DNA from: a virus
DNA: 24,201 nucleotides
Strand: one strand, 5' to 3'
Virus record (IMG/VR): IMGVR_UViG_3300009537_000172
Coordinates: 1 to 24,201 of that record
The notes under the pieces are model-generated. The model made no database searches, was not told the origin of the DNA, and saw nothing but the letters and a program-made list of their open reading frames with translations. Position 1 is the stretch's first letter; every line of letters begins with the position of its first letter. The position numbers and the translations under genes are program-made. Of this stretch, positions 5,486 to 21,137 are shown piece by piece.

Positions 5486-6299
5486 CTATGAAACTGTTGC
5501 TCGCAAAACTGCACCTCGTCCACGGTTTCCAGCAAATACTTTTCGTCCGAAGACAAGAAGTCCTTTAACTGTTGTCATGAATGATGTTGGGTCATTTTCT
5601 GAACCAAGAGTTGAAACTTTCATAATCTGCATTGCCATTGCACAGAAATCTCGTGTACCAGCGATAAACCAGTAACCAGTTGTGTTATCTCCTGCAATAA
5701 GTTCAGATGTATAAACATCAAATCCTGCAATTCTACCAATCTTTGCCCCCTTCACTGCGTCCTCATATGCTGCGCCAACTGCAGGAATGAACTCTGGTGC
5801 CTGAAGAAGTGCTCCTTCAAATACTGAGTTTACAACGATGAATCGTCCCTCCTTTGGAGTTAGTTTCTTTCCAAGAGCTGTACGTAGAGAAACAATATTT
5901 GCATATATGTTTGACTTTGTGATAGCTGTTGCTGTTGCTGCGTTGATAACATATGTTGAAGCTGTCTCTACACCTCCTGTGTAAGCTACTCCATCAAGGT
6001 CTTTCACTGTGATAGCTGTTGCTGAAGAGTAAGCTGTAACCAAGTAGTAAGAACCACCTGTCCACTTAAAGTAACCACCTACCATCGCTGCTGTAAATGT
6101 TGTTCCAGAACCTGTAACAACACCAGTTGTAGCTGCTACTGAAACAGTACCTGTTGAGTAGTTTGTTCCAACTGCGTTATCTCCATCTACGTTCTTAGCC
6201 ATGTATGCTAGAAGGTTTGTATCCAAAAGTTCCTGCATATCTCGCTTTGATGTTGCTGCGTACTCGTTGATAGTATTAATATCGTTTTGTAACTTGTCT
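5486..6299 (-). CDS. Major capsid protein, exon 2 (C-terminal three quarters)
   Basis: This exon continues the capsid frame after the group I intron. Codon 92 is completed across the junction (AT from exon 1 plus A6299, Ile), then the frame reads DKLQNDINTINEYAATSKRD and on to the stop at 5486. The join gives FQVDDI-DKLQNDIN, the sequence expected for an HK97-fold capsid spine region, and a 362-residue protein. Residues about 136-210 of the spliced protein form a Gly/Thr/Ser-rich beta insert (TGVVTGSGTTFTAAMVG) that resembles an added surface domain. The following part (IVSLRTALGKKLTPKEGRF) returns to the capsid core. The first ATG (6238) would give only a fragment and is not the biological start. 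Confidence 0.85.
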
Positions 6300-7223
6300 C
6301 AATTTTGTTACTCCTCTTTCGAGTGGGAGAACCACTTCGGATTCTCCTCTTACGATTTCTCGTAAGTTCAGACTATATTATAATCCTGTTAGATTTTTTT
6401 AAATTCTCTTGTGCAAACAAAGGTTGTAAATTCGTATAATGAAAAGCTTTTTTCTGCTCTTCAACGTCTGTTAAATCAAAACTGTCTAGTGGTAAAATAT
6501 GGTCTATGTGCCAATTTTTACTATTCCAAGTCATTCCATCTTTAAATTGTTTTTCTAAATGAATTCTACATTCATCTATTGAACAACCTATAAGTTGAAT
6601 TGTGGTTAAAGATTTTGGGCCATAACATCTTCTAATTGCATGACTCACTCTTGCTCTTAGTAAATGTTGAAGTTTAAAATTTTCATCTGTAAGGTTTCTT
6701 TCCTTACGTTTGAGTTTGGTGGTCTCTTTACGGTTATATTTATTTGCAGTTTCTCTTATTTTTTCTATGTTCTGCTCTCTATATATTTTACCATACTTTA
6801 AGTATCTTAATCTCCTTTTTTCTTTAACTTTCTCTAGATTATTTTTTACATAATCCAAAGACCTTTTGATTTGTTCTTCTCTATTTTTATGATAAAACTT
6901 CTTATTAGCGATTTTTTGTCTTTCTTTTATTGACTCTCTATTTTTATTTCTATAGCGAGCACAAATTTCTTTTCTTGATAACATCACTATGAAGTTTATC
7001 ATACCAACCTTTATTTGTCAATGAACACAGGATTTTCCGTCTCTAGTCGTTGAACCTTCCTTTTCAGGCTTGGCTGCTGATTGACCCTATCAAGTAATTT
7101 TCAAGCTTTGTGCATCTGTACCCATACGGTACTCTGTTTTAGCTTACTTGCTTTACGGGTTATTCCAGCAATTTACGGAATTTTACATTGTTAGTTACCT
7201 AACAAAGGACACTAGATAGTTTA
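6300..7223 (-). other. Group I self-splicing intron in the major capsid gene
   Basis: 924 nt. All four conserved group I elements occur in order on the minus strand: P (AAATTGCTGGAATAACC, 7174-7158), Q (CAATCAGCAGCCAAGC, 7083-7068), R (GGTTCAACGACTAGAGACG, 7056-7038) and S (AATATAGTCTG, 6379-6369). R and S supply the two P7 strands (GACTA/TAGTC). P1 forms between exon GACAT and intron GTGTC, with the U.G pair placing the 5' splice site after 7224. The intron ends in G at 6300. Hairpins CTTACG...CGTAAG and GGAGAA...TTCTCC after S look like P9-type stems. The HNH ORF sits between R and S, in the P8 loop region. Confidence 0.9.
6373..7002 (-). CDS. HNH homing endonuclease encoded in the capsid intron
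   Basis: 209 residues. A long, very basic Lys/Arg/Asn-rich helical N-terminal region (residues about 10-105, probably DNA-contacting) precedes a C-terminal HNH domain. Its key motifs are WHIDHILPLDSF (about 163-174), with the catalytic His of the DH pair, and FHYTNLQPLFAQENLKKSNR, with the downstream Asn/His-type residues. The start at ATG 7002 has AAAGG about 5 nt upstream, one of the few good ribosome sites here. The stop codon TAG lies inside intron element S (P7 3' strand), so the ORF is fitted tightly into the ribozyme. It is expected to cut intronless capsid alleles near the junction and drive intron spread. Confidence 0.9.
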   Translation of the reverse strand: MINFIVMLSRKEICARYRNKNRESIKERQKIANKKFYHKNREEQIKRSLDYVKNNLEKVKEKRRLRYLKYGKIYREQNIEKIRETANKYNRKETTKLKRKERNLTDENFKLQHLLRARVSHAIRRCYGPKSLTTIQLIGCSIDECRIHLEKQFKDGMTWNSKNWHIDHILPLDSFDLTDVEEQKKAFHYTNLQPLFAQENLKKSNRIII

Positions 7224-7498
7224 ATGTCGTCTACTTGGAATTTGAAGTATTTCTGTTGATCTACAATCAAGTCCTCGTATGATGGTGCTAGTTCCTGAGC
7301 CACAAGAGTTGTTCCTTTTGTGTAATCAGAAAGTGTTAGCTTACCAAGTGTTCGTACTCGCACTCTGTCTCCTTCGCTTCTAATCTCACCTTCGTAGTTT
7401 GTGTTTGTGATCTTTGTATAAATTGTTTCGTTATACAAAAGCTCTACCAATTTAAGTGAATACTTAATTGGTGTGTTTGCTGCTAATGATTGAGTCAT
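7224..7498 (-). CDS. Major capsid protein, exon 1 (N-terminal part)
   Basis: ATG 7498 opens MTQSLAANTPIKYSLKLVEL, then the N-arm and E-loop type region (VRVRTLGKLTLSDYTKGT) and the strand YFKFQVDDI, where the exon ends within codon 92. The open frame continues eight codons into the intron (to 7199), but these would not be in the spliced protein. It pairs with exon 2 at 5486-6299. The scaffold gene lies 16 nt upstream on the same transcript. No SD is visible before the ATG. Without splicing only a useless 99-residue peptide would be made, so capsid production depends on intron removal. Confidence 0.85.
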
Positions 7499-11474: not shown

Positions 11475-12340
11475 CTTATTTTTTCTAAGGTTGGTAATGA
11501 CTTGTCCTTTATCATTTTCCTACGTTCTTCATTTGTTTTTCCCATATACTTATAGTCTGTTCTCACACAAGCCCAGTATCTATCCCCATCATCATATGAA
11601 AGTTTCCTCACATCTACCTCAGATACCGCTATCTTAAAGGCTTTTCTAAACTTCCTGAAGAACAACATAAAGGACAACCCAAGACCGACCAACTTGAATT
11701 TATTGTGTACGAAGACGCTATCTCTCTCGGCCATAATGGAAATAAGACGTTTGATTTCCTTAATTGGATTATTAAGAAGTTTTCCTTTGGTTGTTTCTGA
11801 GAAAATATCCAACACTCTAAACTGATATGCTCTATCGTACTCCACCATGTGCGAGAAAATAAGTGAGAACTTGTCTGCGTTTTCTGTCGATATTCCTAAA
11901 TTGATAAGAAAAGAATAAGTAGACCAACAAAGTTCCTGTGCCACAGGTGTTAAATATTCATTCTTCAGTATATAAGAACTCATTATTTCCCACGACTGAC
12001 GATTAAAAGAAGATAGAAGTTTTTCCAAGAAGCGAAGTTTTGATTTGTGTGGGTACAGTGAAAAAATAATAGATGTTGGTATAAATTCTTTTGAACCAAA
12101 AATTTTTACAGCCTCTATAAAGTTTTTCTTCACCATATTAACTGCCCACATTGTTTGAGGTAATGTTAACCCTTTCTGTGGATACTCCGCCCCTTCTAAA
12201 TATAAAAATATCCCTTTATCCCATGATAGTCTTTCTACAGGTGTAAACTGTACCTGTTCATTCATAATTTCCTCCTCCCTTTCCTGATTTACATAAGCAA
12301 ATTCAGGTATCTCTATTTGTGTTGGTGTTTTTTGTCTCAT
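11471..12340 (-). CDS. Unknown 289-residue protein between terminase and portal
   Basis: The start is taken at ATG 12340, one base after the terminase stop (12342), with GAGGAGTGGGG just upstream. The frame could be extended to ATG 12379 inside the terminase gene. The protein is mostly helical, with aromatic-rich segments (LSWDKGIFLYLEG, FIPTSIIFSLYPHKSKLRFL), one short hydrophobic stretch (FKLVGLGLSFMLFF) and a basic C-terminus (NEERRKMIKDKSLPTLEK). No catalytic motif or known family is recognised. Its place in the packaging module suggests a role in head assembly or membrane-associated assembly, but this is a guess from position. Confidence 0.65.
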   Translation of the reverse strand: MRQKTPTQIEIPEFAYVNQEREEEIMNEQVQFTPVERLSWDKGIFLYLEGAEYPQKGLTLPQTMWAVNMVKKNFIEAVKIFGSKEFIPTSIIFSLYPHKSKLRFLEKLLSSFNRQSWEIMSSYILKNEYLTPVAQELCWSTYSFLINLGISTENADKFSLIFSHMVEYDRAYQFRVLDIFSETTKGKLLNNPIKEIKRLISIMAERDSVFVHNKFKLVGLGLSFMLFFRKFRKAFKIAVSEVDVRKLSYDDGDRYWACVRTDYKYMGKTNEERRKMIKDKSLPTLEKIR

Positions 12341-12341
12341 A

Positions 12342-13637
12342 TTATAAACCCCACTCCTCATACATGGGGGTAATGCCATTAGTCTGAGAGCTTTGAGCTC
12401 TCATATTTTGATAAGTAAGTGGTCTTATTGGTATTTGCCACACAGCAAGTGCCAATGACATCATTCTATCGTCGTGTTTGTCATCAGGTACAACAATCTT
12501 TGTTCTTCCTTGTGCTGTAACATCAAAGAAAGCACTCTTGAGTTCCTCTAGTAACTCTGGATCATCAGGAATCTTTATTTTATCCTGTTCTAAGAGAATC
12601 TGAAGGTTTATTAATAGCTCATTACGGCTGTTATATGTAAAAGTAAATGGGCTCACGTTAATTCCTTTATTCACAAGGTCATCCACTACAGGATTTCCTA
12701 CCCCAGTTGAGTCCATCACCACAAGTGGCTTATTATATTTGTAATATGCCGCCTCTATCTTAGCTTTCTGCAAGGAGTAATCTATCTTATTAAAACTATC
12801 CTGTGGTCCTACTTTAAAAGTAGTCAAATTAAATGGTGTAAGTACCGTATAGTCATTAAATTTAGCCAAGTCCACTCCCAACTGGTACATAGCCATATCA
12901 TCATGCACCCACTCCTCCTGCTTATACGTATGTAAATCTACATCCTTAAAGACAGCACTCGCATTTTCTGTAAAGTCACATTCATACTCCTGCATATATA
13001 ATGCTTTGGACATATTCATCTTCTGTTCTAACAAATCTTCCTCTGGTACTGCGTGAGTTTTAGATACTGGAAGAACTTCTACGTGCCACTTAGGGTTTTT
13101 CTCACCGTTAAGTAGTAATTCATGAGCGTGATTGTTTCCTCTGGGAGTATACACAAACACCGCCCATCCTCCGTTTTCCGTAAGAATAGGTGAGATATAG
13201 TCCCATACCTCTGACTTCATCAGAGCGTATTCCGAAAACACCACACCCACAGGGTTAGTACCGACAATTCTGTCCACATTATCAGCTCCTACAAGCTGTA
13301 GAATAGAGCCATTGTGCAAAGTAATACGCATTTCAGTCTCATTTTTATCCTTTACAATCTCCTTTGGAAAGTGGTCCAAGAAACGAAAACCAGAACCATC
13401 AGCACCTGTCCAAATAACCTTCTTAGCTTGTGTATATGTAGGCAGGAAATAGAAATATGTACCTACACGTTCCATCATTTTCTTAGGAAGGTTGGCAAAT
13501 ACCATTTTATCCTTACCTGCACGTCTGTGAGCTACTAGAATAAGACGTTTATACCCTTCGTCCCACTTTTGTAGGAAAGGTAATTGATATTCACGAGGCT
13601 GGAATAAATGTGGAAGTGAGATTTGTGTTAGAGACAT
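12342..13637 (-). CDS. terL: Terminase large subunit (packaging ATPase and nuclease)
   Basis: 431 residues from ATG 13637; a TTG six codons earlier is rejected. The ATPase domain shows the Walker A variant AHRRAGKDK (36-44), Walker B VVFSE (132-136) and a coupling-type TPRG (164-167). The RNase H-like nuclease domain has its three acidic positions at GVDLA (Asp256), VVMDS (Asp309) and DDKHDDRMMSLAL (Asp389/390). All expected motors and metal-binding residues are present. It pumps DNA into the procapsid through the portal and cuts concatemers. Its start overlaps the HAD-protein stop by 10 nt, and it shares a leftward transcript with portal and capsid genes. Confidence 0.92.
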   Translation of the reverse strand: MSLTQISLPHLFQPREYQLPFLQKWDEGYKRLILVAHRRAGKDKMVFANLPKKMMERVGTYFYFLPTYTQAKKVIWTGADGSGFRFLDHFPKEIVKDKNETEMRITLHNGSILQLVGADNVDRIVGTNPVGVVFSEYALMKSEVWDYISPILTENGGWAVFVYTPRGNNHAHELLLNGEKNPKWHVEVLPVSKTHAVPEEDLLEQKMNMSKALYMQEYECDFTENASAVFKDVDLHTYKQEEWVHDDMAMYQLGVDLAKFNDYTVLTPFNLTTFKVGPQDSFNKIDYSLQKAKIEAAYYKYNKPLVVMDSTGVGNPVVDDLVNKGINVSPFTFTYNSRNELLINLQILLEQDKIKIPDDPELLEELKSAFFDVTAQGRTKIVVPDDKHDDRMMSLALAVWQIPIRPLTYQNMRAQSSQTNGITPMYEEWGL

Positions 13638-13930
13638 AAGTTTTCTTGGTTCCAACTAGTAAAATGTATAGCTTTATTATCAATATAAAAGTCAGCATCT
13701 GGTTTTATATTAGTAATATCATCATATGGTATGTCAAAATATTTCATCCAAGGCCCAATTATATGTTTTCTATTACCCCATACGGAATGAATAATTATAG
13801 TGTGTCCTTTGTCCTTGAATTTCTTTAATGCAAGTTGTGCTCCTTCTATAGGGGCTCCAAGAACTTTACCTTCTGGGGGTTTTTGATCATGTATTACTCC
13901 ATCAAAATCTATAGCTAGTATTAGTGACAT
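13628..13930 (-). CDS. Small HAD-superfamily phosphatase-like protein
   Basis: 100 residues. HAD motif I is clear at residues 8-12 (DFDGV), with both Asp residues. A Ser/Thr motif II is plausible at IIIHSVWGNRKH, and motif IV at PDADFYIDNKAIHF near the C-terminus (acidic pair). It is shorter than most HAD enzymes and has no large cap domain. The likely role is removal of phosphate from a nucleotide or nucleic-acid end. It lies between the terminase genes, begins directly behind promoter copy 4, and overlaps terL by 10 nt. The substrate cannot be read from the sequence. Confidence 0.75.
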   Translation of the reverse strand: MSLILAIDFDGVIHDQKPPEGKVLGAPIEGAQLALKKFKDKGHTIIIHSVWGNRKHIIGPWMKYFDIPYDDITNIKPDADFYIDNKAIHFTSWNQENLCL

Positions 13931-13938
13931 TTGAATAT

Positions 13939-13948
13939 ATTATACCAC
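13939..13948 (-). promoter_or_regulatory. Extended -10 promoter, late type, copy 4
   Basis: GTGGTATAATATATT on the minus strand, 8 nt before the ATG of the HAD-like gene. It should drive terL and the genes beyond it. As at the other copies, no -35 box at proper spacing is visible. Confidence 0.6.
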
Positions 13949-14108
13949 ACGAAGTTTAAAAATTCTATTTTGTAAAAAAAAATATAAAGGACATTTGACA
14001 TTGTACGATATGCGTTGTTAGTTACTTTTGAACTTGAAAAAATGGGTGGTGTAAAAATTGACTACCTTACTATATCTACTAGAAAAGAAAATGGTGCCGT
14101 ACCCGGTA

Positions 14109-14143
14109 CCCCTTACCCCGTACGCCTTACCCCTACCCCCCCC
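14109..14143 (-). other. G-quadruplex-capable tract
   Basis: The minus strand carries runs of 8, 4, 4 and 4 guanines separated by 2, 10 and 3 bases, with a further GGG just beyond. Four-tetrad folding is possible in minus-strand DNA and in the terS-side RNA. The plus strand is a run of TACCCC-like units, unlike the AT-rich surroundings. Confidence 0.5.
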
Positions 14144-14219
14144 ATTCTATATATAGCACTCATTTAATGTGCCTATTACATGGCTTTATATATGGGGCTT
14201 TTGGTATACGCTAGTATGT

Positions 14220-14291
14220 GGCTCAATAGAGCCGTACAAAGTATGTCGCACAATATACATTTGGCGACATTGTAAACGGCTCAACAGAGCC
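14220..14291. repeat. 72-bp nested palindrome beside the terminase gene
   Basis: The arms read GGCTC-4 nt-GAGCCGT-spacer-ATGTCGC and their inverse GCGACAT-spacer-ACGGCTC-4 nt-GAGCC. Each end can also fold alone as a GGCTC/GAGCC hairpin (14220-14233 and 14278-14291). The centre is 14 nt. There is no T-tract for a simple terminator. It starts 43 nt beyond the small-terminase stop. Confidence 0.65.
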
Positions 14292-14333
14292 ACTATATAG
14301 AATAAAGGCGTATAGAGCCTCGCTCATATTTGT

Positions 14334-14801
14334 CTATTCCACTGTACCATTTTCTGCATAGTCTGCTTCACGTGGCACGCTTTCAGGCTGTTCTGGGTCA
14401 TTCTGGGGGCTTGAATTATAGTTAACTATGTTGATTTGTACGTTTGGGGCTTGTATTTCTTTATCCTCGCTGTACTTGGCACGGGCTTGGGTTTTTAGAA
14501 TAAACTTGGATGCATCTATTTGCATTTTACCAACCTCTATGTCCCGCTTGGTCTTTATATTGTCAGGATCTAACTCATAATTGTTATATTTTCTAAGATT
14601 TTTTTCTGCTTTTTGTACTGCTTCTACGTCGTTTTGGGTATTTTCTGTTAGCCATGCGGGTTTTTGGCTTGTTAGTTGCCTTGCTGTAACTTCCGGATAG
14701 CCCGCAAGAAGTGCGGATCTGTACATATTTCCGAAAGTTTCGCTCTTTGGATCTTTATAACTTGCAATGCATAACGCTTGTTTTGGGTCTAATAGTGTCA
14801 T
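14334..14801 (-). CDS. terS: Terminase small subunit
   Basis: 155 residues. The N-terminus (LDPKQALCIASYKDPKSETF, then GNMYRSALLAGYPEVTARQL) is the helix-turn-helix DNA-binding part seen in small terminases, which recognise the packaging site. A central helical, charged oligomerisation region (VQKAEKNLRKYNNYE, KMQIDASKFILKTQARAKYS) follows, and then a disordered Pro/Asn/Glu-rich tail that may contact the large subunit. It is the first gene of the leftward late run, starting 8 nt from a TGTTATAAT element. The gene order terS-HAD-terL is slightly unusual because of the inserted phosphatase and the gap between. Confidence 0.85.
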   Translation of the reverse strand: MTLLDPKQALCIASYKDPKSETFGNMYRSALLAGYPEVTARQLTSQKPAWLTENTQNDVEAVQKAEKNLRKYNNYELDPDNIKTKRDIEVGKMQIDASKFILKTQARAKYSEDKEIQAPNVQINIVNYNSSPQNDPEQPESVPREADYAENGTVE

Positions 14802-14810
14802 TTGCTTTAT

Positions 14811-14819
14811 ATTATAACA
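14811..14819 (-). promoter_or_regulatory. Extended -10 promoter for small terminase
   Basis: TGTTATAAT on the minus strand (TGn plus TATAAT), 9 nt before ATG 14801. It resembles the GTGGTATAAT group but differs in the third base of the extension. No good -35 box is seen. Confidence 0.45.
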
Positions 14820-14897
14820 TTATTTTGCATTATCGCATATACCCACTTTACAAAAGCAAAAAACTATAACATAACCAAAAAGAAAATACTAAAAGAC

Positions 14898-14926
14898 TTG
14901 CATTTTCCCCCCTCCTGTGATATGCT
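14898..14926 (+). promoter_or_regulatory. Strong sigma70-type promoter
   Basis: TTGCAT, a 17-bp spacer and TATGCT. It drives the HNH/HTH-like gene at 14981. The -10 box overlaps the left arm of a palindrome (14924-14940). Confidence 0.75.
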
Positions 14927-14940
14927 GTACATTGTACAGC
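14924..14940. promoter_or_regulatory. Palindromic operator over -10 and start site
   Basis: GCTGTAC ATT GTACAGC has perfect 7-bp arms around a 3-nt centre. It covers the end of the -10 box and the expected start of transcription. A bound dimeric repressor would block the promoter; alternatively the RNA would begin with a hairpin. Confidence 0.6.
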
Positions 14941-14980
14941 GTAACACCGGAAGGAGACAACACTAAACATCACCAAACAC

Positions 14981-15385
14981 ATGAGATATAGAAGCCGATC
15001 AAAGCAACTCCAGCTACATGCTAACACTCCTTTCACAGCTCTAACAGGTATAGAAACATTCATAGTGCATAATGACAATGAGTGCCACATAACAAAAGCT
15101 CTTACCCATAAAGATCATCCCATTCAATCCCACGCTTATGGTCTTTATTCCGGTATATATCCAAAATACAAATATAATCATAAAATTAAAGTAACAAACA
15201 CGTGCGGTGTTAAAAATTGCGTTAAACAAGATCATTTGCAAGCCGTATATCACCCCTCAAAAGACGACATTGAACGCCTTACCACTTATTTACGCTTTTC
15301 TACTATTGAAAGCCTTGCACATCAACTAGATGTCACCCCGCAACTATTACAACAATATATTGATACACATATTGACATTATCTAA
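14981..15385 (+). CDS. HNH/His-Me-finger-like protein with HTH-like C-terminus
   Basis: 134 residues. The segment TCGVKNCVKQDHLQAVYHPS has the C-x4-C-x3-D-H-L signature of zinc-binding-loop His-Me (HNH-type) endonucleases. The C-terminal stretch STIESLAHQLDVTPQLLQQY looks like a helix-turn-helix. The start is ATG 14981, but the strong ribosome site GGAAGGAG is 24 nt upstream, so initiation is uncertain. The gene is monocistronic, between a promoter with an operator and a strong terminator, which suits an early regulator or a free-standing homing endonuclease. The candidate catalytic His is the one in QDHL. Which role is right cannot be decided here. Confidence 0.65.
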   Translation: MRYRSRSKQLQLHANTPFTALTGIETFIVHNDNECHITKALTHKDHPIQSHAYGLYSGIYPKYKYNHKIKVTNTCGVKNCVKQDHLQAVYHPSKDDIERLTTYLRFSTIESLAHQLDVTPQLLQQYIDTHIDII

Positions 15386-15408
15386 AAAATGTATCATAAC
15401 ATATAAAA

Positions 15409-15441
15409 GCGTATAATATCCATATTATACGCCTTTTTTTT
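15409..15441 (+). terminator. Rho-independent terminator
   Basis: GCGTATAATAT / ATATTATACGC arms of 11 bp with a 2-nt centre, followed by CTTTTTTTT. A strong intrinsic terminator 24 nt after the HNH/HTH-like gene. The A-rich left flank (AAAA) extends the stem. Confidence 0.85.
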
Positions 15442-15450
15442 GTTTCTGAG

Positions 15451-15459
15451 TTATCCACA
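15451..15459 (+). promoter_or_regulatory. DnaA box 1
   Basis: TTATCCACA, an exact match to the bacterial DnaA box, within GAGTTATCCACA, 10 nt after the terminator T-run. The same 12-mer occurs at 22348-22359, and an inverted copy of the box lies at 19665. Confidence 0.5.
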
Positions 15460-15477
15460 TATTACAGTATAAAACAC

Positions 15478-15505
15478 TTGTGCTATTGTATCATTATGCT
15501 ATTAT
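15478..15505 (+). promoter_or_regulatory. Promoter for small early genes
   Basis: TTGTGC, a 16-bp spacer and TATTAT, followed by AT-rich sequence, 40 nt before the membrane-protein ATG. It is the only candidate promoter between the terminator and the early gene cluster. Confidence 0.5.
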
Positions 15506-15545
15506 ATATATATAAGGCAACAACAATTAAAAAGCCTTTAAAATT

Positions 15546-15695
15546 ATGAACGGATACAGCAACTATAAAGAATATAAGAGACAACAGCGAAAAGAGTTTA
15601 TAAAGTCGATTATAAACGGCCTAGGCGTATTTTTAGGCCTTGTTATTACAATGCTGTTTATATGGGTGTTTTTTGTGGTGATCTTATCAATATAA
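15546..15695 (+). CDS. Small single-span membrane protein
   Basis: 49 residues. A basic, Tyr-rich N-terminus (MNGYSNYKEYKRQQRKEF) precedes a long hydrophobic segment (about residues 23-49, GLGVFLGLVITMLFIWVFFV). The charge pattern predicts N-terminus in the cytoplasm by the positive-inside rule. It is the first gene of the plus-strand early cluster, right after the promoter at 15478. The short size fits a host-takeover or membrane-modifying peptide. No family is recognised. Confidence 0.6.
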   Translation: MNGYSNYKEYKRQQRKEFIKSIINGLGVFLGLVITMLFIWVFFVVILSI

Positions 15696-15708
15696 TATAA
15701 ATAATAAT

Positions 15709-16254
15709 ATGAACAACGAATATACAAAACAAGCAAGAAAGTTTTTAACCGATACAGGCACAACGCTTGAAATAGTGGAAGCAATACCACAAAAAGCTCC
15801 TTTGTGGGCAAAGAAAGGAGAGAGGCACGGCATAAATTATACAGTAACACTACAAAATGAGAGGGCAAAATATACCTTTGATTTTTGGGACAGTATTGCG
15901 AATTCTGAAATAATAGAGGCAATAAAAAACATTAAAAGGTTATCTTTTCAAGAGGACTCAAAACACTATCAGGCCGAAAGGTTTTTGCAAAGCAAAGGCA
16001 TAAATTGGCGAACAGTTAGAACACCAGAACAAAAAAACAAAAAAATAGCAGAATATATGCCGAATGAATATGATATTTTAGCGTGTCTATCTCCTTTATA
16101 TGAAGATACTCTAGAAGATTTTTACTCAGCTTTTGGGTATGAAGAAGATAGTATAACAGCACTAAAGACTTTTGACGCTTGTAAAGAGCAAGACCGCAAT
16201 TTGCGAAAGCTTTTTACACTAGACGAATTAGAAGCTTTGAACGAAATACAATAA
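15709..16254 (+). CDS. Conserved-type phage hypothetical protein
   Basis: 181 residues, soluble. The N-terminal half is an alpha/beta domain (ARKFLTDTGTTLEIVEA, YTFDFWDSIANSE). The C-terminal part has the pattern DFYSAFGYEEDSITALKTFDACKEQDRNLRKLF...ELEALNEIQ (given here in part), which I know as a recurring motif in phage and metagenomic proteins of unknown role. No catalytic motif is seen. It begins 13 nt after the membrane protein gene, with no SD before ATG 15709. Early expression is inferred from its operon position. Confidence 0.7.
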   Translation: MNNEYTKQARKFLTDTGTTLEIVEAIPQKAPLWAKKGERHGINYTVTLQNERAKYTFDFWDSIANSEIIEAIKNIKRLSFQEDSKHYQAERFLQSKGINWRTVRTPEQKNKKIAEYMPNEYDILACLSPLYEDTLEDFYSAFGYEEDSITALKTFDACKEQDRNLRKLFTLDELEALNEIQ

Positions 16255-16255
16255 C

Positions 16256-16396
16256 ATGTCAGCAATAATATACAAATACGCAAAAGACTGGTACATCGCA
16301 CGAGGCCACGATCACAACGGACGCAACATCGTGGGCTTCGGTAGTACACATAGCGAGGCATTACAGGACTTTTTCAGCCGTTGCGTTAGTATATAA
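16256..16396 (+). CDS. Small protein, unknown function
   Basis: 46 residues (MSAIIYKYAKDWYIARGHDH ... FGSTHSEALQDFFSRC). The ATG is one base after the previous stop in a TAACATG junction. It is His/Tyr/Arg-rich with no clear domain, but the pattern of an N-terminal beta hairpin and a C-terminal helix (SEALQDFFSRCVSI) resembles small double-strand-beta DNA- or RNA-binding folds. A hairpin follows immediately. Confidence 0.55.
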   Translation: MSAIIYKYAKDWYIARGHDHNGRNIVGFGSTHSEALQDFFSRCVSI

Positions 16397-16429
16397 CCCG
16401 CTAGGCTTCACCAGCACACCACTGGCGGG
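16397..16429 (+). other. Intergenic hairpin without T-tract
   Basis: CCCGC ... GCGGG with an inner CCAG ... CTGG stem, starting directly after the stop codon at 16396. It is GC-rich compared with its surroundings. With no U-run it more likely stabilises or processes mRNA than terminates. Confidence 0.4.
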
Positions 16430-16487
16430 GCTTCTGGGGGCTTGTATAGTCAACAAGTTATCTCATTATTAGAATAATTATAAATAT

Positions 16488-16667
16488 ATGCAAAAACAAA
16501 CACCAACAACAAAAGACGAGGCGAGGCAATATGCTATTGACTGGCAAAACAGTTTTGATACTCATGCTTATTCGTGGGGAGAACTTGCGGAATGGTCAAG
16601 TGAGTTTGAGGCACTAGGCGAAAAGTTTGATTTAACAGAGGAGTTTGAGACTAACGGTATAATATAA
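16488..16667 (+). CDS. Small acidic protein, unknown function
   Basis: 59 residues (MQKQTPTTKDEARQYAIDWQ), Trp- and Glu-rich, predicted helical, ending in the LTEEFETNGI pattern that I know from small phage hypothetical proteins. It lies after a 91-nt gap holding the hairpin. It joins the next gene through TAACATG. No catalytic residues are apparent; a protein-protein interaction role is possible. Confidence 0.6.
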   Translation: MQKQTPTTKDEARQYAIDWQNSFDTHAYSWGELAEWSSEFEALGEKFDLTEEFETNGII

Positions 16668-16668
16668 C

Positions 16669-16806
16669 ATGACAACAAAACAACTACAAAACAAAATAGA
16701 TAAGATTAGAGAGAGTTTATCTTATGAGGTAGGAAGTAGCACAATGGACTTGATAAATGAGCTTGTCGAGCTTGAAACAGAATTAGAAAACAATTGTAAC
16801 AAATAA
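16669..16806 (+). CDS. Small helical protein, unknown function
   Basis: 45 residues, helical and charged with a heptad-like pattern (LQNKIDKIRESLSYE, MDLINELVELETELENN), suggesting a short coiled coil. TAACATG junctions lie on both sides, so it is probably translated by termination-reinitiation with its neighbours. No family is recognised. Confidence 0.55.
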   Translation: MTTKQLQNKIDKIRESLSYEVGSSTMDLINELVELETELENNCNK

Positions 16807-16807
16807 C

Positions 16808-17017
16808 ATGAAACTATTCTTAACCGCCTCCAGCGAAAGAGGCAAGCCAGTGACTAAGTCCGGGAATGAGTATATCAAATGTGAAATAATAGACGAGCAA
16901 CAAAATGAATTGATAACATTACACATTACAGCGTGCCACTCACAAATAAACGGTAAACACTATAATGTTTATATGAACAATCCACAAGGGCAATATCTAG
17001 CAGTAACAGAAAGGTAA
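16808..17017 (+). CDS. Small beta-rich protein, unknown function
   Basis: 69 residues. Alternating polar and hydrophobic strands (YIKCEIIDEQQNELITLHIT, KHYNVYMNNPQGQYLAV) suggest a small beta barrel, perhaps OB-like. There are two Cys residues. It is joined to the preceding gene by TAACATG and followed by a structured 100-nt gap. Function is unknown. Confidence 0.55.
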   Translation: MKLFLTASSERGKPVTKSGNEYIKCEIIDEQQNELITLHITACHSQINGKHYNVYMNNPQGQYLAVTER

Positions 17018-17059
17018 ACGCAAAGCTTCCACCTATCAAGGACAAAGGCAAAGCGACAA

Positions 17060-17086
17060 CCTCACAGCTCACAGCGAGCGGTGGGG
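17060..17086 (+). other. Two-step intergenic hairpin
   Basis: CCTCAC pairs with GTGGGG (one G-T pair) around an inner GCTC-5 nt-GAGC stem, followed by TTTG. It lies in the 100-nt gap before the next small gene. It could be a weak terminator or an RNA-processing site. Confidence 0.4.
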
Positions 17087-17117
17087 TTTGTTGCATTAAT
17101 AAATAACAACTAATAAC

Positions 17118-17264
17118 ATGAACAAAATACTAATAACAGCATTCGCATTTTTAACACTAGCCTTGCTAGTTATTACGCTTGACGTATTCATTACAAGGCA
17201 CCCCTTTGAACGAGAGAGAGAGCAAAAAGAGCTACCACTTAGAAATTATACTCAATGCAACTAA
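17118..17264 (+). CDS. Small membrane protein with N-terminal anchor
   Basis: 48 residues. A hydrophobic N-terminus (MNKILITAFAFLTLALLVIT) is followed by a charged soluble part with an Arg/Glu repeat (FERERE). It could be an anchored protein or an uncleaved signal. No lipobox Cys is in place. It starts in an AACATG context and ends one base before the next small membrane ORF, so the two are probably made together. Confidence 0.55.
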   Translation: MNKILITAFAFLTLALLVITLDVFITRHPFEREREQKELPLRNYTQCN

Positions 17265-17265
17265 T

Positions 17266-17391
17266 ATGATCTACATATTCGCCGGTATAATCGGCTACAG
17301 CATAGAACAGTGGACAGGCTTTGCTGTCTCTATGCTACTTGTAGGAGGTATACACTTAATAATTAACCGACAACGCAATGAAACTAACTAA
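17266..17391 (+). CDS. Small membrane protein
   Basis: 41 residues (MIYIFAGIIGYSIEQWTGFA, VSMLLVGGIHLIINRQRNETN). It has two short hydrophobic stretches around a QW turn, allowing one long or two short membrane passages, and a positively charged tail. The frame can be extended to a TTG at 17179, but that lies inside the previous gene and is rejected. Its end overlaps the HTH gene by 14 nt. Its function is not known. Confidence 0.55.
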   Translation: MIYIFAGIIGYSIEQWTGFAVSMLLVGGIHLIINRQRNETN

Positions 17392-17557
17392 AATATCAGA
17401 CATCATCCCTTTAATTGAAAAGGGCGAGACTGGTGCGAAAATTAGCAAGCACTTTGAAATAAGTATCCCATCATATTGGCGATATGTCCGTATGCTAAGG
17501 GAGGCAGGCTATAAAATACCACCCATGAAACGAGGGAGACGACTACCACCACTATAA
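17378..17557 (+). CDS. Small helix-turn-helix DNA-binding protein
   Basis: 59 residues. Residues about 6-45 form an HTH of the homeodomain-like/resolvase type: IIPLIEKGETGAKISKHF, then EISIPSYWRYVRMLREAGY. A basic tail follows (MKRGRRLPPL), probably touching DNA. The gene ends 15 nt before a consensus promoter with the TTTAGT element, so it could regulate that promoter. It overlaps the upstream membrane gene by 14 nt. Repressor or activator cannot be told from the sequence. Confidence 0.65.
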   Translation: MKLTKISDIIPLIEKGETGAKISKHFEISIPSYWRYVRMLREAGYKIPPMKRGRRLPPL

Positions 17558-17572
17558 GAGACTCAAATTGAC

Positions 17573-17601
17573 TTGACATTTTTAGTCAATTTTTGTATGC
17601 T
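17573..17601 (+). promoter_or_regulatory. Consensus promoter with TTTAGT element (site 1)
   Basis: TTGACA, a 17-bp spacer and TATGCT. The spacer begins with TTTTTAGTCAA (site 17578-17589), and TTGAC upstream can pair with GTCAA in the spacer. Transcription should start near 17608. Confidence 0.75.
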
Positions 17602-17607
17602 TAAGAC

Positions 17608-17661
17608 ATCACGATGGCTCAACATTCAAGAAAACAAAAGCACCACACTATGGTGCTTTTC
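17608..17661 (+). ncRNA. Candidate small RNA of about 55 nt
   Basis: A consensus promoter leads straight into a strong hairpin terminator about 50 nt downstream, with no gene with a ribosome site between. A 24-codon frame (ATG 17614, MAQHSRKQKHHTMVLF) crosses the terminator and has no SD. The RNA ends are estimated from promoter and hairpin positions only. It lies between convergent transcription units. The alternative is an attenuated leader with no downstream plus-strand gene before 19715. Confidence 0.5.
17636..17660. terminator. Bidirectional intrinsic terminator
   Basis: AAAAGCACCA / TGGTGCTTTT, a perfect 10-bp stem with a 5-nt loop. The AAAA and TTTT flanks are themselves paired, so the structure can act on both strands. 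It separates the plus-strand unit from the leftward replication genes. Confidence 0.75.
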
Positions 17662-17699
17662 TCGTTTATATACTCTTCCAGAGCATAAGACAAAAACTC

Positions 17700-17723
17700 A
17701 ACCCTCACATTTCTGCGAGGGTT
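17700..17723 (-). terminator. Terminator for the leftward ATPase gene
   Basis: AACCCTC / GAGGGTT, a 7-bp stem with a 10-nt loop. On the minus strand it is followed by GAGTTTTTG. It lies 55 nt beyond the stop codon at 17779. Confidence 0.55.
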
Positions 17724-17778
17724 AAGATAAATTTATAGTTTTGGGCTATTAACCACGCCGTTGTGGTACTTCTTAATC

Positions 17779-19014
17779 TTACCACTTATCACCAATCGTG
17801 TCAACAAACCCTTCCTCTGTTGTTCTTTCTCTCTCAACAATAACCTCCACCACTTCAATATGCTCAATACGCCTTACCACTCTATAATCCCTCTCATCCT
17901 TGAACTTCCAGTACAGCACACCGTTCTCAGCAGACCGCTCTACAACACCCACAGCAGACAGGTTCTGACATATAATACCGATGACATTAGTTGCTAGTCC
18001 TATTCTGTCAGCAATAATCTGGGAGGATACATAGTTATCAAAAGCAACACTTGCCAATACTTTCAGCACAGCTCGTTTCTCTTCATTTGCGAGAGAGTAT
18101 CCGCACCAGTCCAGTACAGAGAGATCAGACTCTAATAGCTCATAACTTCCAGACTCGTAGTTACGCATTACAGATAACGCCTTGGTGATAGACATCAACT
18201 GCAATGCTACACGCATAGGCATAGCTGGAACAGGTATTCTGTCTATCTCTTTACCGGACCAGTCCTTATGTGCGACTGTACGAACACGCTCGGCAAAGGA
18301 AGCAACTTCGATAAGTCGTGCTAGTACATCATCACTTATCTCTATATCACGTCCGTCATATGACTTAGTAGCTTCTGAGAGGTATTCTGCATATAGGTCA
18401 GATAGAGTGGTGTCTAGTCCTTTACCAAACTTCTTTCTGCTAAGTGCGAGGTGCGTCGCCTTGTATTGGTCAAACTCCTTCATTCTCCAATAGATAAATC
18501 GTTCTCCCATGTCTGATACTTCTTCAAAGTGAGAGTAGATAGATGGCGTAGAGCCTGCTAGTACACCTAAGTACCCATGCCAGTGTAACGGCTCTTTGCT
18601 ATTACCTGTAATCTTGGTCATCTCTCCGTCGTATATCATACGGAACTGCGATAGAATGGCTGTACGAGCCTCTGCTTGCTTAGAAAAGATAACAGTTAGA
18701 TCTGAGATGACGATTACACCATGCTCACCTATTTGATTGAGGAGAGAGATTTCACCCTCTTTAGACTTACCACCTGAGAGGAAAGTATTCTCTGTAAGGT
18801 CGTCCACTCTATGAAGGAATTTCTTATCTGTCAGGGCTAGTGGTCGTAAGATTTGCGACTTACCTCCAGACGACGCACCAATAATAATAAGCCACACAGG
18901 ATCACCTATCTGCAAGCGTGAAGCTATAATAGATGCCAAAGATATATCAATAATCTTGGTGTCCTCAAGATGTTGGTACTTCTTAATTTCGTTTTTTAAT
19001 TCAGCGAGCTTCAC
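17779..19014 (-). CDS. P-loop ATPase of the replication module, helicase-like
   Basis: 411 residues if GTG 19014 is used, five bases after the primase stop. A TTG at 19056 is possible but lacks a ribosome site; GGAGAGG lies 14 nt before the GTG. Walker A is GASSGGKS (46-53) and Walker B IVISD (101-105). The middle contains a sensor-like GVLAGSTPSI. The C-terminal 90 residues look like a winged helix (SSQIIADRIGLATNVIGI). Following a zinc-finger primase fragment, it probably acts as the helicase or ATPase half of a split primase-helicase. No exact family is recognised, so ATPase is firm and helicase is inferred. Confidence 0.75.
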   Translation of the reverse strand: MKLAELKNEIKKYQHLEDTKIIDISLASIIASRLQIGDPVWLIIIGASSGGKSQILRPLALTDKKFLHRVDDLTENTFLSGGKSKEGEISLLNQIGEHGVIVISDLTVIFSKQAEARTAILSQFRMIYDGEMTKITGNSKEPLHWHGYLGVLAGSTPSIYSHFEEVSDMGERFIYWRMKEFDQYKATHLALSRKKFGKGLDTTLSDLYAEYLSEATKSYDGRDIEISDDVLARLIEVASFAERVRTVAHKDWSGKEIDRIPVPAMPMRVALQLMSITKALSVMRNYESGSYELLESDLSVLDWCGYSLANEEKRAVLKVLASVAFDNYVSSQIIADRIGLATNVIGIICQNLSAVGVVERSAENGVLYWKFKDERDYRVVRRIEHIEVVEVIVERERTTEEGFVDTIGDKW

Positions 19015-19019
19015 TTTTA

Positions 19020-19526
19020 TTATTGTAACCTCTCCACCGCTTGCACGAAGGAGCAATTATTTAACTGTTGATAAATGGCTATGGAGTCGTACGACTTATT
19101 ACATCCTCCAAAGCAGTGACACTTGTTATCTTTCTTGTAATAATGTAGCGATGCCGTCGTCTCATTATGAAAGGGGCATCTCGCCACATTCCTATTAAAC
19201 TCAATCAACTCTTCCACTGGATATTCCTTCGCTCTTGCTATCATCTCTTCTGTCACACCCTTCCGACTTTTACTAGGCGATAGTGCCATCTGATTTCTCT
19301 TCAATCGCCTCTTCCAGTATTCCTCTCTGTTTACTTTTATAATCAACTCCTCTGCTATCATCCTCCAAAACTCTTCACTCTCTTTCTTTGCTTTCCTGTA
19401 AATAATATCTTCACATTGCTTTCTAACTTTCTCATTTTGTTTTAAGTATTCCAGAATATCTTTATTCTGCCTTTGCAGAATTTCTTTATGCTCTGGAAAT
19501 ACTTTTAGTGCTTCGTAGAAGGTCAT
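19020..19526 (-). CDS. CHC2-type zinc-finger primase protein
   Basis: 168 residues from ATG 19526. A charged, helical N-terminal half precedes a C-terminal CHC2 zinc finger: CPFH (Cys117, His120), ASLHYYKKDNKCHCFGGC (Cys138, Cys142), then NKSYDSIAIYQQLNNCSF. CHC2 fingers recognise the template in bacterial and phage primases. The last knuckle is CFGGC instead of the common CFGC. There is no TOPRIM catalytic domain, so it must work with another protein, perhaps the ATPase encoded just downstream. A TTG at 19571 would extend the protein by 15 residues into a hairpin and is thought unlikely. Confidence 0.8.
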   Translation of the reverse strand: MTFYEALKVFPEHKEILQRQNKDILEYLKQNEKVRKQCEDIIYRKAKKESEEFWRMIAEELIIKVNREEYWKRRLKRNQMALSPSKSRKGVTEEMIARAKEYPVEELIEFNRNVARCPFHNETTASLHYYKKDNKCHCFGGCNKSYDSIAIYQQLNNCSFVQAVERLQ

Positions 19527-19541
19527 GTTATTGCAAACAAA

Positions 19542-19588
19542 ATTCACCACCCGACTGCACGCCTCTTTCAAGGCATCGGATGGTGAAT
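19542..19588 (-). promoter_or_regulatory. Hairpin in the primase leader
   Basis: ATTCACCACCCGA and TCGGATGGTGAAT form a 13-bp stem with one C-A mismatch (G-T pair in the minus RNA), enclosing a GCCT/AGGC inner stem. It lies 16 nt upstream of the primase ATG and 38 nt downstream of its -10 box, so it is part of the 5' leader RNA. Confidence 0.6.
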
Positions 19589-19626
19589 ACTATTAACAAT
19601 GTGGTGAAAGAAATTTGCATTACTTA

Positions 19627-19654
19627 AGTATAATACTTTTATTTTTAGTTGCAA
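19627..19654 (-). promoter_or_regulatory. Promoter for primase-ATPase unit, with TTTAGT element (site 2)
   Basis: On the minus strand: TTGCAA, a 16-bp spacer and TATACT. The spacer contains the inverse of ATTTTTAGTTGC (19641-19652). The DnaA box 2 lies 11 nt upstream. Confidence 0.6.
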
Positions 19655-19664
19655 ACTTTTTGCC

Positions 19665-19673
19665 TGTGGATAA
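19665..19673 (-). promoter_or_regulatory. DnaA box 2
   Basis: TGTGGATAA, the inverse of TTATCCACA, between the divergent promoters of the primase and HTH/helicase units. Confidence 0.5.
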
Positions 19674-19679
19674 ACTAAT

Positions 19680-19708
19680 CTAGCCAAATTTATTTTTAGT
19701 GCTACAAT
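19680..19708 (+). promoter_or_regulatory. Promoter for HTH-helicase unit, with TTTAGT element (site 3)
   Basis: Extended -10 TGCTACAAT (TACAAT at 19703-19708) directly follows ATTTTTAGTGC (19692-19702). The -35 is poor (CTAGCC or TAGCCA). The ATG of the HTH gene is only 6 nt after the -10, so the message may be leaderless. Confidence 0.5.
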
Positions 19709-19714
19709 ATATCT

Positions 19715-19888
19715 ATGCCAAGACCTACAAAAATAGAGGAGTTAGACAAAAAGCTCCGCAAAGAACTTATCAAAGACCTTTATTGGACCGGGAATATTGA
19801 GATGGTTCGTATAGCTCGTATCTTTAAAATGTCCATACAGAATGTATGGGGAGTGATTAACAGCGACAAAGATGACAAATCTATATGA
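19715..19888 (+). CDS. Small helix-turn-helix protein
   Basis: 57 residues (MPRPTKIEELDKKLRKELIK). The HTH is visible at about residues 26-50 (GNIEMVRIARIFKMSIQNVW). The size is at the lower limit for a DNA-binding regulator. It sits immediately behind a promoter bearing the TTTAGT element, so self-regulation is possible. The end overlaps the helicase start (ATG 19872) by 17 nt. Another possibility is a DNA-end- or origin-binding partner of the helicase. Confidence 0.6.
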   Translation: MPRPTKIEELDKKLRKELIKDLYWTGNIEMVRIARIFKMSIQNVWGVINSDKDDKSI

Positions 19889-21137
19889 TCACCAGAAAAA
19901 AATAATAGACGAAGATAAAAAGAAGTGTGGACTCTGGCTTGGTACAGGTTCTGCAAAAACTTTGACAGCTCTACATCTTGCAAAAGGAAAGATACTTGTA
20001 ATAACTCCAAAGACACAAAAGGAAGAAGAGAACTTTAAACGTGAGGCAAAGAAGTTTGGTCTTGATAAGAACATAACTTCTTTATCAAAAGAACAATTCA
20101 AAAAAGTTGCTCATACACTTCCACGTTTTGATACAGTTATTGTAGATGAAGCTCACACAGTCGCAGGTGTTACCACAGCAACAAAACAACGTAGAGGAGT
20201 TATAAGCCCTCGTGCTTCGCAACTCTTTGATACTTTATATACATACTTACAGGAAAACCCTCCAGAAAGATTATACTTCTTAACGGCCACACCAATAAGA
20301 TCAGCGATGTCGGTATATGCTCTTGGAATATTGCTCGGCTATAAATGGAATTATCACGAGTGGCGTGACGCTTTCTACACCAGAATATCTCAAGGCTACC
20401 GAGAGTTTTGGATACCTCGTAAAACTTTAGAAGTAAAAGAAAGACTTGGAAGAATTGTGCAGACAACAGGATACACAGGACGACTGGAAGATTACTTTGA
20501 TGTTCCTACACAAATTTATAAAACAATTCACATAGAACTTACTGATGCTCAGAAGAAAAGACTTAAAGAAATTCCAATAGAATATCCAGAGCCAATTGTT
20601 CAGATAGGAAAGTTACATCAAGTAGAAAACGGAGTGCTTGGTGGTGATGAGTTTAATAAAGAAGAAGAGTTTGCAAATAATAAAATAGAAAAGATTTTAG
20701 ACCTAGCTCTTGAGTTTCCACAAATGGTGATCTTCGCAAAGTACACCGCACAAATTAAAAGTATTGTCTCCGCATTAACTAAGGCAGACTATAAAGTCTT
20801 AACACTTACAGGGCAGACAAAAAATCGTGATGAAGTTTTGAAAGAAGCTAACAGTAGTAAAAATTGTATTCTAGTTTGTCAGTCACAAATAAGTGCTGGG
20901 TGGGAAGTGCCAACATATCCATGTATGGTATTTGCTTCCATGACATATTCTGTGGTGGATAGAATACAAGCAGAGGGTCGTATATTAAGAGCCAATAATT
21001 TGAAGAAAAATATCTTTATAACTCTCGTAGTAAAAGGTGGTATAGACGAAGCAGTAGCCAAAGCAATAGAAAGTAAAGAAGACTTCATTGAGAAAATATA
21101 TGTTGAAAAGAGAAGCACAGTCCGCAATAAAATTTAG
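19872..21137 (+). CDS. Superfamily 2 DNA helicase
   Basis: 421 residues. The SF2 motifs are in order: Q-like HQKKIID near the N-terminus, Walker A GTGSAKT (24-30), DEAH (92-95), LTATP (137-141), and in the second RecA lobe VIFAKYTAQI (286-295), VLTLTGQ (309-315), SQISAGWEVPTY (338-349) and DRIQAEGRILR (363-373, motif VI with its two arginines). The overall layout is that of a phage replication or repair helicase related to the SNF2/RAD54-like and DEAH groups. Walker A has Ala where GKT helicases have Gly. It overlaps the resolvase-like gene by 38 nt and probably acts on replication forks or recombination intermediates. Confidence 0.88.
   Translation: MTNLYDHQKKIIDEDKKKCGLWLGTGSAKTLTALHLAKGKILVITPKTQKEEENFKREAKKFGLDKNITSLSKEQFKKVAHTLPRFDTVIVDEAHTVAGVTTATKQRRGVISPRASQLFDTLYTYLQENPPERLYFLTATPIRSAMSVYALGILLGYKWNYHEWRDAFYTRISQGYREFWIPRKTLEVKERLGRIVQTTGYTGRLEDYFDVPTQIYKTIHIELTDAQKKRLKEIPIEYPEPIVQIGKLHQVENGVLGGDEFNKEEEFANNKIEKILDLALEFPQMVIFAKYTAQIKSIVSALTKADYKVLTLTGQTKNRDEVLKEANSSKNCILVCQSQISAGWEVPTYPCMVFASMTYSVVDRIQAEGRILRANNLKKNIFITLVVKGGIDEAVAKAIESKEDFIEKIYVEKRSTVRNKI

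Follow-up and report, generated by a model that had tools for sequence, protein, structure and literature searches.

The major capsid gene of mycobacteriophage LittleE is interrupted by a probable group I intron of ~820 bp, the splicing of which was demonstrated in 2013 by RT-PCR and protein sequencing (PMC3706429), and the same paper cites the lactococcal phage Tuc2009 as having a capsid subunit gene with a group I intron. The genomes of Jug phages contain 18.5 group I introns on average, and metatranscriptome reads have confirmed some of them (PMC12363816). In view of these reports the element described here, which lies in a virus record of 24,201 bases (the window, meaning the whole stretch of DNA that was analysed), belongs to a type that is already known. 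We put at roughly 0.95 the probability of the reading as a whole, in which a tailed phage carries a mobile group I intron within its major capsid gene, predicted splicing and homing included.

The window's intron resembles that of LittleE in residing in a major capsid gene, following an exon that ends in U, terminating in G and being accompanied by a homing endonuclease gene. It also resembles the Tuc2009 intron, as far as this is described in the citing paper (PMC3706429), in that a capsid subunit gene is the host. In contrast to the LAGLIDADG-related ORF of LittleE, which is on the opposite strand, the ORF in the window is of the HNH type, is on the same strand and occupies the P8 loop. The 5' core aligns with that of Lactococcus phage AM1 (KY554768) at 71% over 145 nt, and in AM1 an HNH gene likewise lies just downstream of the core, between two transglycosylase coding sequences. 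The AM1 host gene, however, is the transglycosylase, and its HNH protein displays no detectable similarity to the window's endonuclease. The window's intron is in itself an ordinary mobile element in a previously seen host gene, and its interest lies in the surrounding pattern of capsid insertions; a partial literature search found no description of a single HNH intron lineage that targets capsid genes repeatedly.

An interrupted major capsid gene

On the minus strand, the capsid frame that begins at 7498 runs for 99 amino acids to a TAG stop (7201-7199), and capsid coding restarts at 6299. Joining T7224 to A6299 generates a continuous 362-amino-acid frame (7498-7224 plus 6299-5486), and in a PHROG profile search the product of the joined exons hits phrog_267, a major head protein family, with an E value of 5.6e-39. 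The next gene downstream encodes an SU10-type adaptor. The features of the locus are as follows.

7224-7498, minus strand: first exon of the major capsid protein gene, 91 codons plus 2 nt; alignable to residues 1-92 of relatives that lack the intron
5486-6299, minus strand: exon 2 of the same gene, from frame joining, profile match and relatives
6300-7223, minus strand: predicted group I intron, 924 nt, last base G; RF00028 matches and fold; absent from 69 relatives with a readable junction
7208-7228, minus strand: P1, exon GACAU (7228-7224) with guide GUGUC (7212-7208); at the 5' splice site U7224.G7212 forms a wobble pair
7163-7180, minus strand: P3 5' strand UUCCGU (7180-7175) and P element/P4 5' strand (7173-7163)
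7072-7082, minus strand: Q element/P4 3' strand
7042-7055, minus strand: R element, with the P7 5' strand GACUA at 7048-7044
7035-7040, minus strand: P3 3' strand ACGGAA
7027-7034, minus strand: P8 5' strand AAUCCUGU
6373-7002, minus strand: ORF for a putative 209-amino-acid HNH-type homing endonuclease in the P8 loop, with a conserved motif block; last codons encode the P8 3' strand, stop in S
6382-6389, minus strand: P8 3' strand ACAGGAUU, within the HNH ORF and fully complementary to 7034-7027
6367-6379, minus strand: S element, with the P7 3' strand UAGUC at 6375-6371
6349-6366, minus strand: P9 hairpin CUUACGAgaaaUCGUAAG, 7 bp; another hairpin (P9.1-like) downstream

RNA core and putative endonuclease

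The core elements P, Q, R and S are present in one copy each and in order, and the strands of P3 (UUCCGU/ACGGAA), P7 (GACUA/UAGUC) and P8 (AAUCCUGU/ACAGGAUU) are exact complements. The 5' splice site has the U7224.G7212 pair and the intron terminates in G6300; both were read directly and conform to group I rules. When a 1-kb stretch was searched with the RF00028 covariance model, both the 5' half of the intron (7233-7028, 44.9 bits, E 5.7e-10) and the 3' half (6484-6349, 22.2 bits, E 0.0035) were matched, each below the Rfam gathering score of 50 bits, as expected because a 0.6 kb ORF splits the core. An Rfam scan of the whole 24-kb window returned no intron match, and neither did an RF00028 search of the genome record, which likely reflects the splitting of the core by the ORF together with stricter filters on longer input. 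A further group I intron was not found at 12000-20500 of the window, a weak negative since the whole-window scan missed the known intron. With the ORF removed, the core folds at -87.3 kcal/mol compared with a mean of -60.1 (SD 4.9) for dinucleotide shuffles (z -5.6), and the expected helices are present.

The ORF sits between R and S, and its TAG stop codon (6375-6373) falls within S/P7. As the coding sequence takes in the 3' strand of P8 and terminates inside S, the RNA core and the protein overlap. The block IDHI.PL...EEQKKAFHYTNLQPL....N..K (also rendered IDHI.PL...TNLQPL....N..K), which reads as an HNH pattern, is invariant in eight aligned proteins, comprising the window's and seven relatives. 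Pfam HNH matches the ORF weakly and under its cut-off (E 0.1), the PHROG profile matched is phrog_1035 (endonuclease VII, E 3e-7), and the endonuclease gave no useful match when searched against PDB sequences.

The earlier note had proposed, from the letters alone, a capsid frame that stops at 7199 and resumes at 6299, an AT/A join (a slash marks the insertion point here and below) restoring 362 residues, the four core elements in order, a P1 of GACAT with GTGTC, a final G, and an HNH ORF between R and S whose stop lies inside S. All of these hold, and two of the checks that it suggested, covariance modelling of 6300-7223 and a survey of intronless relatives, gave the sub-threshold matches to both halves described above and the 69 loci described below. 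The interpretation of 7223-6300 as a group I intron is supported, with boundaries, ORF position and capsid identity as first read.

Intronless relatives and the splice junction

The capsid is encoded by 20 uncultivated-virus loci that run uninterrupted across the junction, where they read ...VDDI-DK... or ...VDDV-DK...; their identity is 57-82%, apart from an outlier at 45%. A wider scan for capsid relatives yielded 80 loci, the uninterrupted relatives being mostly 54-82% identical, and at 69 uncultivated-virus loci the junction codons were readable, in every case with no intron. Empty alleles are thus common.

The junction remains ambiguous by one nucleotide (AT/A or ATT), although Ile is encoded either way. 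The group I junction implies the Ile codon ATA, which none of the 69 intronless relatives use, while 31 use ATT. It could be argued that the splice points of the group I intron lie one base further downstream (after T7223 and after A6299), so that the codons read ATT GAC, as the resultant sequence, GACGACATTGACAAG, is identical to that of several intronless relatives (L167, L194 and others). Such a shift, however, would replace the U.G wobble at the 5' site with a U-A pair and leave an intron that ends in A, not the conserved G, and we consider it unlikely. Homing can co-convert exon flanks, and flank co-conversion is a plausible reason why the window has, under the preferred junction after U7224, an ATA codon that is absent from its relatives.

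A homologue at the same capsid codon

The closest relative of the window's endonuclease (49-54% identity) is encoded by IMGVR_UViG_3300020171_000073 (L021), within a 918-nt insertion that matches the group I model at 29.2 bits. Removal of this insertion (GATGACAT/AGACAG) generates a 397-amino-acid protein that matches phrog_267 (E 9.3e-22) and displays ~25% identity to the window's capsid over 118 amino acids. The insertion is at the same aligned capsid codon, and in the same phase, as the window's intron (DD-AT/A-D; DDI/D). The two introns are alike in their HNH region, in a near-identical 3' end (TAACAAAATTG/AGACA) and in having an ORF that ends in S, whereas the 5' half of the L021 RNA has strongly diverged. 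The presence of an insertion at the same codon of a distant capsid gene provides independent support for the window's splice site. It also suggests that a conserved capsid motif is the homing target.

It might also be proposed that the intron is a dead remnant, or that an assembly artefact has fused an intron to a capsid gene, such that the transcript is unspliced; both intron halves fall below the Rfam cut-off and the contig is metagenomic. The exact pairing of P3, P7 and P8, the open ORF with its conserved motif, the intact exons that join perfectly in frame, and the homologous intron at the same codon of L021, an independent contig, render this very improbable. That the capsid gene is broken, or split into two proteins, with an unspliced free-standing HNH gene in between, is scarcely credible even though such genes are often found between phage genes, since the break interrupts the conserved motif DDID, translation of the downstream frame from its first start codon (6238) would omit ~20 conserved residues, and the insert contains a complete group I core.

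For the mobile group I intron favoured here, the precursor RNA would bind guanosine and be cut after U7224, which would then be joined to A6299 to give the mRNA for the 362-amino-acid capsid protein. Splicing, and hence the dependence of capsid output upon it, is predicted from the architecture of the locus. The HNH endonuclease, translated from the intron, would cleave capsid genes that lack the intron, close to the DDI-D codons, and repair would then copy the intron into the cleaved gene. Since the targeted sequence codes for a conserved capsid motif, distant phages may be within reach of the intron, as L021 suggests.

Capsid genes as hosts of related introns

A Q-R core pattern, unbiased with respect to host gene, identified at least 120 loci, and 112 upstream exons were scanned. 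Among the matches listed, 11 of these exons match Pfam SU10_MCP and 10 match phrog_267. Because none of six exons taken to represent the window's capsid family matches SU10_MCP, at least 18 of the 112 upstream exons belong to major capsid genes, a rough figure that counts an apparent duplicate pair (L082 and L108) and derives from a sample that was not dereplicated and in which exons were chosen automatically. Ribonucleotide reductase, by comparison with these 18 or more capsid exons, accounts for ~4-6 of the 112, and major head proteins are the commonest identified host gene for this core type, again among the matches listed. The view expressed in the earlier note, that introns are uncommon in phage capsid genes compared with replication genes, is thus unsupported, and fails for uncultivated phages, in light of both this count and the capsid intron reported with RT-PCR in 2013 (PMC3706429).

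Among capsid genes, the insertion points for this core type include N/KVDDI, DDI/D, DDIEEAHS/W and IKEP/EI, with others besides, and several of the genes, such as those of L120 and L123, contain two introns. Near-identical introns were sought with a narrow DNA pattern and none was found. It may be that one lineage of HNH group I introns has come to specialise in major capsid genes among uncultivated phages, with short conserved motifs such as DDI-D as its homing targets, and that it thereby crosses between capsids that are only ~25% identical. We regard this as tentative, at slightly below an even chance, and the reading is based on a small and biased sample. If it were correct, capsid genes would be a main reservoir of phage introns and not an exception. 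As the open frames are split, capsid-based phage surveys may miss or truncate intron-bearing genes.

The window's enzyme family has relatives in at least one further capsid-like gene family. In L022-L026 these relatives are carried by what appear to be introns, inserted at another position and in a different capsid-like gene, ahead of an exon starting NGF; L031, read from its downstream exon only, probably has the same arrangement. Separately, nine loci (L120, L123, L044, L057, L082, L092, L125, L049 and L151) belong to the same broad capsid family as the window and have group I introns elsewhere in the gene. Placement of the L092, L057 and L123 introns at the window's site was considered and rejected, as their sequences locate them several codons downstream.

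Other genes in the window

Three other regions, all on the minus strand, merit comment. Adjoining the terminase, a short ORF at 13628-13930 is a host-like auxiliary gene with a match to phage phosphoheptose isomerase (phrog_1238, E 4.7e-17). At 17779-19571 a match to the N-terminal part of DNA primase ends within ORF 19020-19571, and an overlapping 425-amino-acid ORF with no family match comes next; a frameshift or split primase gene is possible. Finally, the 757-amino-acid product of 497-2770 is virion-like, contains two stretches of concanavalin A-like lectin type (Laminin_G_3) and is perhaps a receptor-binding or decoration protein.
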